NCBI RefSeq assembly: GCF_004005945.1
Contig: NZ_SACS01000027.1
Coordinates: 1-48,295, forward strand
Reading direction: 5' to 3'
Source: Rheinheimera riviphila
GTDB taxonomy: Bacteria; Pseudomonadota; Gammaproteobacteria; Enterobacterales; Alteromonadaceae
DNA: 48,295 bases
Shown here: piece by piece, positions 36,984 through 48,295 of the stretch
How positions within the stretch are numbered: the stretch's first letter is position 1
How the letters are laid out: every line of letters starts with the position of its first letter
Program-made: the position numbers and the translations under genes
The notes under the pieces: model-generated
Seen by the model: the letters and a program-made list of their open reading frames with translations, nothing else
Database searches by the model: none
Told to the model about the DNA's origin: nothing

Positions 36984-37394
36984 ATGCAATCCACCAAAAA
37001 ACTGATCCATGTGGCTGTTGGCGTGATCCAGCGTGACGAGCAGATTTTTATTAGTAAAAGACCTGATCAGCTGCATCAGGGCGGGCGCTGGGAATTTCCG
37101 GGCGGTAAAGTTGAGCAAGGCGAAACCGTGGTCGCTGCATTGACCAGGGAGTTAATGGAAGAAGTAGGATTGCAGGTGCTTGATGCAACACCACTGATGC
37201 AACTGGAATACGCTTATCCAGAGAAAACCGTGTTACTCGATGTCTGGTTGGTCAGTCAGACCGAAGGCCTTGGCGAGGGCTTAGAGGGCCAGCAAGTGGC
37301 GTGGGTGCATTTTTCCGAACTTAGCAATTATCAGTTCCCGGACGCCAATCAGCCAATTTTGGATAAAGTGTTAGCGTTGTATCAGGCTCAGTAG
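36984..37394 (+). CDS. mutT: 8-oxo-dGTP diphosphatase MutT (Nudix)
   Basis: About 136 residues. It hydrolyses 8-oxo-dGTP to prevent A:T to C:G transversions. The Nudix box is visible as GGKVEQGETVVAALTRELMEEVGL (about 39-62). The N-terminus KKLIHVAVGVIQ and the motif RWEFPGGK match E. coli MutT, and secA-mutT is a conserved neighbour pair. GGGA 7 nt before the ATG at 36984 favours this start; an ATG at 36972 and a TTG at 36969 are alternatives. There is no MutT/thiamine-synthase fusion. REP copies follow at once. Confidence 0.92.
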   Translation: MQSTKKLIHVAVGVIQRDEQIFISKRPDQLHQGGRWEFPGGKVEQGETVVAALTRELMEEVGLQVLDATPLMQLEYAYPEKTVLLDVWLVSQTEGLGEGLEGQQVAWVHFSELSNYQFPDANQPILDKVLALYQAQ

Positions 37395-37420
37395 GGCGGA
37401 CTCAGCGCAGCTAGTCCGCC
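37391..37420 (+). repeat. REP palindrome, GGCGGACT stem class
   Basis: A GTAG head (37391-37394) is followed by the stem GGCGGACT...AGTCCGCC. The head overlaps the mutT stop codon. The sequence is identical over 30 nt to the copy at 37513. Confidence 0.8.
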
Positions 37421-37450: not shown

Positions 37451-37486
37451 GGCGCACTACCGCTGTCGCGGTGAGTGACGCCCTAC
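37451..37486 (-). repeat. REP palindrome, GGCGCACT/GGCGTCACT stem variant, inverted
   Basis: Read on the minus strand it starts with GTAGGGCGTCACTC. The arms are GGCGCACT and AGTGACGCC with an inner ACCGC/GCGGT pair. The flank gcaaatat beyond the head is shared with the REP at window position 1-8, extending the conserved block outside GTAG. Confidence 0.75.
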
Positions 37487-37512: not shown

Positions 37513-37542
37513 GTAGGGCGGACTCAGCGCAGCTAGTCCGCC
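37513..37542 (+). repeat. REP palindrome, GGCGGACT stem class, second copy
   Basis: It has the same 30 nt as 37391-37420 in the same orientation. The two direct copies enclose an inverted copy of another class, making a three-element cluster between the convergent mutT and yacG genes. Confidence 0.8.
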
Positions 37543-44257: not shown

Positions 44258-44287
44258 GTAGGGTGGGTCAGCGCAGCGCCACCCACC
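44258..44287 (+). repeat. REP palindrome, GGTGGGT stem class
   Basis: A GTAG head (44258-44261) is followed by the stem GGTGG and closing CCACC arms around TCAGCGCAGCG. The inner AGCGCAG core is shared with the GGCGGACT class, while the stem arms differ in a compensated way. Confidence 0.75.
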
Positions 44288-44314
44288 AGAGAAAGATGAA
44301 GGGTACAATGAATC

Positions 44315-44344
44315 GGCAGATGGCGCTTTGCTTATCTGCCCTAG
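44315..44344 (-). repeat. REP palindrome, GGCAGAT stem class, inverted
   Basis: On the minus strand it starts with CTAGGGCAGATAAG; the head is CTAG rather than GTAG. Arms GGCAGAT and ATCTGCC are perfectly complementary. It faces the GTAGGGTGGGT copy 27 nt away, in the inverted-pair arrangement of a REPIN, although the two stems are of different classes. Confidence 0.65.
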
Positions 44345-44365
44345 GTTCGGTAACTACCCATCCGG

Positions 44366-46431: not shown

Positions 46432-47454
46432 ATGACCTTAATCAGCATGTTAATCGCACTTATTATTGAAAGGCTGGCCGTTCGTACCAAAGCCTGGCAG
46501 TGGGTCAGTTATGTACAACCTTATTTGCAGGTGTCGCGGCAAGGGCCGTTGGCCGGGTTGCTCAATAGCCAGTTTGGCATGGTGTTGTGGTGGTTGTTGC
46601 CAGCCATTGCCGTGGCGGTGGTGTTGTTGGTGGTTGATTTCTGGTTACTGACTTTGTTGGTCAATACAGTGGTGTTGCTCCTTTGTATTGGCTGTTGGCA
46701 TTATCGGCAACTGTATAAACAGTATCTGAATGCGGCCGAGCGCCAGGATCAGGAAGCGGCGTATCTGGTGATGCTGCAAATTAATCAGCATGCCGGCATC
46801 ATTTCGGACGAACTGAGCCACGGCCAACGGCTGATTTGGTTGAATTTTAAATATTATGCGGCGGTATTATTCTGGTTTGCTTTGCTGGGGGCTTTTGGCG
46901 CCATTGCTTATGCCATGTTACGTCAGTTGGCAGAGCCTGTGACTTATCTTGACCTTGCTGCTGTGAAAACTTCGACTGAAACCGCCAATGCTACTGACAA
47001 TGAAGTTGCTGCTGATGCTGCTTTGGAAACCGCTTCTGATTTAGATAGTGCAGAGCAAACTGCTTCGACAGGAACTGCTTTTGAACAATCAACAGCCCAG
47101 TCTGCTTTCACCACATCCAACGCCAGCAACCTCGACCAGCAACAGCGGATCCAAGGGTTTGCCGCCGACCTCAGTCATTGGGCAGACTGGCTGCCGGTAC
47201 GATTGTTTGGTTTAGGTTTTGCGCTGGTCGGGCATTTCTCCAAAGCTTCAGCAGCGCTGATTGCTTATCTGGTCGACAGCAGCACTCCGGCTGAAATTGT
47301 GCTGGCAGATATCGCCAAAGCGGCCGAGCCATTGCCAGATGAGCTGCGTAACTGCAACAGCGAAGTTTGTTCGTTAGTGCAGCTGTCAAAACGCAATATT
47401 CTGTTTTTCCTGGCTTTAGTGGCGGTATTAACCTTAAGTGGGTTGTTGTCGTAG
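46432..47454 (+). CDS. ampE: AmpE, membrane protein of the ampDE operon
   Basis: 340 residues with about four membrane helices: residues 1-14 (partial), 43-80, 142-165 and 320-338. AmpE is a membrane sensor-like protein of unresolved role in beta-lactamase regulation. The family start TLISMLIALIIERL and the motif RLIWLNFKYYAAVLFWFALLGAFGAIAYAMLRQL are visible. A Ser/Thr/Ala/acidic low-complexity insert (about 178-242) makes it roughly 55 residues longer than E. coli AmpE. GGAG lies about 8 nt before the ATG, directly after ampD. Confidence 0.9.
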   Translation: MTLISMLIALIIERLAVRTKAWQWVSYVQPYLQVSRQGPLAGLLNSQFGMVLWWLLPAIAVAVVLLVVDFWLLTLLVNTVVLLLCIGCWHYRQLYKQYLNAAERQDQEAAYLVMLQINQHAGIISDELSHGQRLIWLNFKYYAAVLFWFALLGAFGAIAYAMLRQLAEPVTYLDLAAVKTSTETANATDNEVAADAALETASDLDSAEQTASTGTAFEQSTAQSAFTTSNASNLDQQQRIQGFAADLSHWADWLPVRLFGLGFALVGHFSKASAALIAYLVDSSTPAEIVLADIAKAAEPLPDELRNCNSEVCSLVQLSKRNILFFLALVAVLTLSGLLS

Positions 47455-47469
47455 CTTCAATTGGACCAA

Positions 47470-47504
47470 GGCGTACTACCGCTGACGCGGTGAGTACGCC
47501 CTAC
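47470..47504 (-). repeat. REP palindrome, GGCGTAC class, inverted, upstream of RAYT
   Basis: On the minus strand GTAGGGCGTACTCACCGC, then the loop and the closing arm GTACGCC. It is nearly the same as the copy at position 8-42. It forms an inverted pair with 47533-47562. Confidence 0.85.
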
Positions 47505-47532
47505 TTTTTCCGTATAAATTCATATCTTTACC

Positions 47533-47562
47533 GTAGGGCGTACTCGCGGAAGGCAGTACGCC
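47533..47562 (+). repeat. REP palindrome, GGCGTAC class, upstream of RAYT
   Basis: GTAG head, then GGCGTACT and AGTACGCC arms around a shortened CGCGGAAGGC centre. With 47470-47504 it makes a head-to-head REPIN-like pair separated by 28 nt. Confidence 0.85.
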
Positions 47563-47679
47563 GGGATAAAAAAACGCCCATCAACATATACTTCACATTT
47601 AATTACTTCTACGCACTGGCGGATCAGCGCAAGCACTTCATACTTGTTGCTTCGAACCTGAACTCACGGATGAATTCAA

Positions 47680-48219
47680 ATGGACTATCGCAGGCAATGG
47701 CGACCCGGTGGTTGTTATTTTTTTACCCATACCTTGTTAGATCGCACTCAAACTTTACTCTCGGATCAAATTGAAATTTTGCGAACGGCTTTTCGGCTGG
47801 TGAAAAAACGTTATCCATTTTTCATTCATGCCGTGGTGGTATTGCCAGATCATTTCCATTGTTTGCTCGAGTTACCGCAAGGGGAGCATGACTTTGCTAT
47901 CCGTTTTCGATTGATAAAAATGTATTTTTCCAGAGCATTGGCTATTCAGGAACCCCGTAATACATGCCGCATACGGCGACGTGAGCGTGGCATTTGGCAA
48001 CGCCGGTATTGGGAGCATCTGATCCGCGACCAACAGGATTTTCTTAATCACATCAATTACATTCATTGGAATCCAGTTAAACATCAGCTGGTGAAATTGG
48101 TCTTAGAATGGCCTTATTCCAGTTTCCATAGTTATGTGGCATTAGGCTGGTATCCGTTAAATTGGTGTGGTGACACTCAAAACAGCGGTTTTATAAACAT
48201 TGGCGGCGATGATGGCTAG
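47680..48219 (+). CDS. REP-associated tyrosine transposase (RAYT, Y1/HUH family)
   Basis: 179 residues. It is a single-domain HUH endonuclease related to IS200/IS605 TnpA. The HUH motif is His58-Phe-His60 in VVVLPDHFHCLLELP. The probable nucleophile is Tyr127 in INYIHWNPVKH, with further conserved-looking RYWEH and WPYSSF. RAYTs cut single-stranded REP hairpins beside a GTAG head and are domesticated single-copy genes rather than ordinary insertion sequences. REP copies of one class flank it closely on both sides (47470-47562 and 48255-48290). All motif residues are present, so it appears intact. Its promoter probably lies in or next to the REP pair. Confidence 0.92.
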   Translation: MDYRRQWRPGGCYFFTHTLLDRTQTLLSDQIEILRTAFRLVKKRYPFFIHAVVVLPDHFHCLLELPQGEHDFAIRFRLIKMYFSRALAIQEPRNTCRIRRRERGIWQRRYWEHLIRDQQDFLNHINYIHWNPVKHQLVKLVLEWPYSSFHSYVALGWYPLNWCGDTQNSGFINIGGDDG

Positions 48220-48254
48220 AATGCTGGAGTTGTTGTGAGAGCGCATTTAGTCAC

Positions 48255-48290
48255 GGTGTACTGCCGCTGCCGCGGCGAGTAGCGCCCTAC
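48255..48290 (-). repeat. REP palindrome, GGCGTAC-like, inverted, downstream of RAYT
   Basis: On the minus strand GTAGGGCGCTACTCGCC, closing with AGTACACC. It has mismatches in the outer stem relative to the other GGCGTAC copies. It sits 35 nt past the RAYT stop and the window ends inside its conserved flank (gcaag). Confidence 0.75.
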
Positions 48291-48295
48291 GCAAG

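Follow-up and report, generated by a model that had tools for sequence, protein, structure and literature searches.

A RAYT gene at a shared chromosomal place and an abundant family of GTAG-tagged REPs in Rheinheimera riviphila

Rheinheimera riviphila carries, in one copy and at one place, an intact gene for a domesticated, single-domain REP-associated tyrosine transposase (RAYT A) together with an abundant family of GTAG-tagged REPs (class A), and we consider it highly probable (about 90%) that this RAYT acts in trans on that family as its own. The DNA analysed here (the window, 48,295 bp) is the whole of contig C34 of a 4.75 Mb genome (G000). RAYT A lies at its right end (47680-48219, + strand), and the other open reading frames (ORFs) of the window include the mraZ-to-ftsZ cell-wall/division cluster, secA, type IV pilus genes and ampD-ampE.

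The RAYT A gene is an ORF without internal stops that encodes 179 aa. Its product scored 179 bits against NCBIfam NF047646 (REP_Tyr_transpos, REP-associated tyrosine transposase; cut-off 80) and 24.5 bits against Pfam Y1_Tnp (cut-off 23), and residues 2-167 matched TnpA-REP of the E. coli REPtron (RAYT group 2; PDB 4er8, E 2e-41) with the HUH motif and the tyrosine aligned. The HUH motif reads HFH at residues 58-60 (47851-47859, +), while Tyr127 (48058-48060, +), within NYIHWNP, aligns with Tyr115 of the E. coli protein. The accessible text of PMC8266576 describes Y115F as a catalytic mutant of TnpA-REP, and from this alignment Tyr127 is presumed to be the catalytic residue of RAYT A. By its family-specific score and as a Y1 HUH transposase with one presumed catalytic tyrosine the protein is a RAYT, which bears out the intact HUH tyrosine RAYT proposed in an initial annotation of the letters. 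Compared with E. coli TnpA-REP, RAYT A has 13 more residues before the IWQRR stretch. The E. coli protein has a C-terminal Gly-Glu that contacts GTAG, according to the same portion of PMC8266576; none was seen on inspection of the RAYT A tail, which ends SGFINIGGDDG. An acidic C-terminus without Gly-Glu is also found in many RAYT relatives.

RAYT A is flanked by inverted REPs. Upstream, a long T-type REP (47470-47504, -; GTAG head, 8-bp stem, bulged C, 5-bp upper stem) stands head to head (CTAC...GTAG, heads 28 nt apart) with a short T-type REP (47533-47562, +), forming a REPIN that ends 117 nt before the gene; the pair had been described correctly at first, apart from a spacing of 118 nt. Downstream, a degenerate long REP (48255-48290, -) starts 35 nt past the stop codon, again where the initial annotation had placed one. 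As single-stranded DNA, the two upstream REPs gave much better folds than their dinucleotide shuffles did (z -6.2 and -4.7; 0 of 200 as good), and the downstream copy had no clear advantage (z -1.3; 24 of 200 as good). Thus the three like copies originally proposed could all be located and the first two fold strongly, but the third is worn and folds poorly; it probably opens a REP array that is interrupted where the contig stops. Further REPs in the window are a T type of the long form at the left end of the contig (8-42, +), two short G types (37391-37420, +, fold z -3.9; 37513-37542, +) and, between these, a long type with a second bulged base (37451-37486, -). Positions 46800-48295 had no Rfam match at E values up to 1. 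The window has REPs at its two ends (8-42 and 48255-48290), as have contigs C24, C31, C41 and C42 at their starts, and REP arrays very probably broke the assembly at these contig ends.

Among 40 window ORFs (at least 90 aa, little overlap), RAYT A alone had a Pfam transposase domain, in agreement with its description as the only transposase in the window. A congener (G013) carries an orthologue with 92% amino acid identity and the same neighbours, in the order ampD-ampE-RAYT-REP array-pdhR; there a REPIN precedes the gene, and an array of four long REPs at 122-bp steps lies behind it, followed by pdhR (L038). In G000, contig C28 carries pdhR and its start matches the G013 sequence, so contigs C34 and C28 very probably adjoin. 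Comparison of the orthologues gave dN 0.036 and dS 0.203 (NG86) or 0.038 and 0.163 (YN00); the resulting dN/dS of about 0.2 indicates purifying selection on RAYT A. In each of the two species examined, G000 and G013, RAYT A is present in one copy at the same place, and the available part of PMC8049555 describes RAYTs as single-copy genes that are inherited vertically. The single-copy status first assigned to the gene therefore holds for RAYT A itself but not for the genome, in which a second, different RAYT (C26:543242-543745, 54% identical) has its own REP class. Two further Y1_Tnp proteins of G000 (L005, 110-1006, -, 299 aa; L006, 739-1764, -, 342 aa) scored below the NF047646 cut-off for RAYTs (78.6 and 37.4 bits against 80).

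With inverted REPs on either side in the manner of element ends, RAYT A and its flanks might be taken for an IS200-like, self-mobile insertion sequence. We rejected this explanation, to which we give next to no weight: one copy was found, it occupies the same ampE-pdhR place in two species, and REPs without the gene outnumber the gene by more than 150 to 1 under covariance model R1 (below).

To describe the family, 36 distinct REPs were aligned, picked from 64 in fetched stretches of G000 and G013. In the class-A hairpin, GTAG precedes a stem of 8 bp, after which one C on the 5' side is left unpaired (alignment column 14 in all 36 REPs) and pairing resumes in an upper stem of roughly 3-5 bp. 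Stem pairing held in 96.2% of cells against 86.6 ± 0.9 in shuffles, and covariation was seen as two-sided changes in 41 cells against 12 ± 3 (0 of 500 shuffles as high in either case); these values lean towards pairing, as the 64 REPs came from a both-arms pattern. Neither the number of pairs that change on both sides (4 against 3.5 in shuffles) nor that of further pair types (7 against 6.5) showed an excess. Four of the 13 hairpin pairs change on both sides, six are invariant and three depart by unpaired cells only. The types of class A differ in the middle pair (T-A, G-C or C-G), in length and in a second bulged base, so that what was initially treated as one class is a shared GTAG-hairpin family of several types (T, G, bulged long).

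The fetched stretches of G000 contained 84 distinct REPs in 34 clusters, 11 of them single. Neighbouring REPs within 400 nt were inverted in 45 of 50 pairs (27 head to head, 18 tail to tail; five in the same direction), and arrays of 5, 8 and 13 REPs stood at contig starts. Identical full-length REPs recurred in up to 6 different downstream contexts. These elements are thus GTAG-tagged palindromes of 20-40 nt in many copies, as expected of REPs, with an intergenic position seen in the window; the predominance of inverted doublets in the fetched stretches is that of REPINs, and the imperfect palindrome with its bulge and adjacent GTAG is that of group 2 REPs. Assignment of the G type to an orphan REP class without a RAYT was rejected on account of its head-to-head pairing with T and long types and its presence beside two Pseudomonas RAYTs (below).

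The abundance of these REPs follows the presence of RAYT A. RAYT relatives were searched in 60 genomes, a close relative being one with E below 1e-40; nine of the 22 genomes of the genus have one, and RAYT A itself is found in two, G000 and G013. The 12-mer of the T type, GTAGGGCGTACT, occurs exactly 60 times in G000, 13 times in G013, and once each in 9 and never in 11 of the other 20 genomes (reversed control: 0 in G000, 0-2 per genome). The 12-mer of the G type, GTAGGGCGGACT, occurs 44 times in G000, 8 times in G013 and not at all in the other 20 (reversed control 0-2). Covariance model R1 (E 0.01), which is biased towards G000 and G013 as the sources of its REPs, matched at least 156 sites in G000 and at least 89 in G013; in the other 20 it gave 1-12 matches in 12 and none in eight. 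Since 150 candidates were scored per genome (of 2628 in G000, 2236 in G013 and 952-2206 in the others), the R1 counts are lower bounds, above all for G000. The best R1 match outside the RAYT-A genomes had E 1.4e-10 (G017). Matches were also obtained in hosts of class-C RAYTs, whose REPs share the architecture (G012, 12; G004, 7; G010, 6), and in genomes without a close RAYT (G001, 8; G002, 6; G005, 5).

By both the exact heads and R1, the class is therefore neither absent from the rest of the G000 genome nor equally common in relatives without RAYT A, being abundant in only two of 22 genomes. Taken together, the family models, this co-occurrence and the presence or absence of single REPINs (below) support the link between RAYT A and class-A REPs drawn in the initial annotation. 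The accessible portion of PMC3686654 reports that REP number depends on the cognate RAYT, and the high copy number in two of 22 genomes agrees with such dependence; G000 and G013 are possibly sister species, in which case a single phylogenetic event could account for the co-occurrence.

The association between RAYTs and GTAG hairpins extends beyond the genus. Among the best 80 of 568 confirmed RAYT loci, all from named genomes, 72 had a GTAG hairpin within 250 nt, 46 of them on both sides; for the same 80, 163 hairpins were found in 39 kb near RAYTs against 27 in 305 kb farther off, or 4.16 against 0.09 per kb. This enrichment, albeit in the best 80 of 568, and the restriction of class A to RAYT-A genomes make it very improbable that the REPs are merely transcription terminators or mRNA stabilisers and stand near RAYT A by chance, a role that would otherwise suit hairpins lying between genes in the window, with one REP pair starting 15 nt past the ampE stop. 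Two RAYT relatives contain internal stops, L062 (G048:C1:1412914-1413330) and L047 (G057:C1:1252608-1253093); GTAG hairpins lie on both sides of the former and one lies at the latter.

At two Pseudomonas loci (L075 and L103), RAYTs 60% and 56% identical to RAYT A are flanked by REPs with GTAGGGCGTACT and GTAGGGCGGACTC heads, the T and G types. Their heads are the same as those of class A, whereas the upper stem and loop differ. The sequence GTAGGGCGKACTC occurs 16 and 28 times in the respective genomes, against 0, 0, 0 and 1 times in four others searched (L126, L119, L128 and L067). A tree of RAYTs (90 rows of 91 proteins, the short L046 being left out) has RAYT A on a long branch and does not place it. 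RAYT A was not joined with the Pseudomonas pair in this tree. Constraints holding it with that pair (AU p 0.21), with five Pseudomonadaceae rows, with class C or with B+E were not rejected (AU p 0.21-0.33 over the four). Tentatively, the T and G specificity (GTAGGGCGTACTC, GTAGGGCGGACTC) common to RAYTs of 56-60% identity might reflect joint movement of a REP/RAYT pair between distant hosts, or might have arisen twice.

Within the genus there are at least five REP classes, each beside its own RAYTs. The second RAYT of G000, on C26, is flanked by class B REPs, GTAGGGTGGATAAGCG. The class B sequence GTAGGGTGGATRAG is found 8 times in G000, twice in G013 and not in the other 20 genomes; with up to 2 mismatches, the class B 16-mer gave 23 matches in G000, 17 in G013 and 0-3 in the others (reversed control 0-3). 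G013 has one RAYT match and none to RAYT B, so its class-B REPs look like leftovers. Class C flanks the RAYTs of G010, G012, G014, G015 and G004, class E that of G003 and class D that of G018. Copies of the class-C pattern number 2-7 in the five host genomes, compared with 0-3 in the 17 remaining ones; class E, at up to 1 mismatch, has 5 copies in G003, 3 in G018 and 1 in G002 (reversed control 0-3). Among classes A, B, C and E, which were counted, class A is the most expanded by head counts. The genome-wide count of RAYT genes and REP classes envisaged at the outset thus found class A abundant, but also a second RAYT with a different REP class. REPs resembling that class occur in the window as well: a worn pair at 44258-44345 (GTAGGGTGGGTCAGCG... 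and a hairpin headed by CTAG) sits between the pilin and quinolinate phosphoribosyltransferase genes. One class-C REP is found at the same place in eight species of the genus (L220, L223, L224, L226, L229, L231, L233 and L235), of which five lack a close RAYT at E below 1e-40; this REP is a candidate for co-option by the host.

The comparison of G000 with G013 revealed both shared and differing sites. Among 52 stretches of G000 and 21 of G013, eight places, that of RAYT A included, carried REPs in both species; a large part of the family thus predates the split between them. Of 17 G000 sites without such a match, 12 were taken, and for 10 the flanks could be located in G013; drawn from sites not matched as shared, this sample is biased towards difference. 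Class-A REPs were present in G013 at five of the ten (L204, L206, L209, L212 and L213), and at the other five they occurred in G000 only (none in G013 at E below 0.01). One of the latter, L211, is a clean empty site in G013 (17 nt against about 200); L208 and L210 have class-B pairs instead of class A, with one weak match (E 0.014) at a class-B hairpin of L210; and L205 and L207 have other sequence in place of the class-A REPs. The longer G013 sequence at L207 and L205 resembles another repeat family (GCGGCGAAACGCTTTTAAAA-like), a piece of which is also carried by L008 of G000. The presence or absence of single REPINs could thus be compared as had been suggested, between two species rather than strains, and the five differing sites of ten show gain or loss of REPINs, without direction or agent. 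Identical REPs at different sites, together with these five, make spread since the species split likely.

The same observations bear on whether RAYT A is instead retained because it serves the host in a way that does not involve REPs, such as the processing of single-stranded DNA, with class-A REPs as fossils of past activity. Purifying selection and the fixed place would suit such a function, present movement being only inferred, and so would the eight places common to both species and the class-C REP described above, a case of a REP maintained in genomes that lack a close RAYT. Against it stand the identical full-length REPs in up to 6 contexts and the five of ten sites that differ between the species; on balance we regard this explanation as unlikely.

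RAYT-driven copying of REPINs in trans is the most likely mechanism, with the confidence given above for the system and less for activity today. By homology with E. coli TnpA-REP, REPs would fold into hairpins with the 8-bp stem and bulged C when their locus is single-stranded, and the RAYT would bind the GTAG head and stem. Tyr127 would then nick beside the hairpin while the HUH histidines coordinate a metal ion, and REPINs, as inverted pairs, would be copied or transferred to intergenic sites elsewhere. The REPs beside the gene would be substrates rather than the ends of a gene-carrying unit. Binding, cleavage and present mobilisation of REPs by RAYT A are thus proposed by analogy, and cleavage by E. 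coli TnpA-REP depends on GTAG and the bulge according to the literature consulted (below).

The main features fit published RAYT/REPIN rules. As far as descriptions of the E. coli system were available, its REPs (y, z1 and z2 in BIMEs) likewise carry GTAG immediately ahead of a hairpin that is imperfect and bulged in mid-stem, and occur as several types in inverted pairs and tandem arrays; arrays of REPs also adjoin the gene there. The class-A bulge, one unpaired C following the 8-bp stem, contrasts with AA/GC in E. coli, and the stem sequence differs. The RAYTs of Pseudomonas fluorescens SBW25 form another group (group 3). By its description in the accessible part of PMC3116915, the SBW25 genome also has inverted REP doublets and tandem REPIN clusters, and each REPIN group is clustered beside a RAYT. 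Between them, the parts consulted of PMC2817692, PMC3116915, PMC3686654, PMC3733652, PMC8049555 and PMC8266576 record RAYTs with inverted REP flanks, dimorphic REPs, BIMEs and REPIN arrays, a REP number that depends on the cognate RAYT and decays once it is lost, and E. coli TnpA-REP cleavage that requires GTAG and the bulge. The class-A REP is not described in these parts.

These results extend the RAYT/REPIN system to another host genus, in which the repeats have been strongly multiplied. The 22 genomes, with five RAYT/REP classes whose copy numbers vary widely and with sites at which REPINs are present or absent between two species, offer a small natural comparison that would help in studying why a REP family expands.
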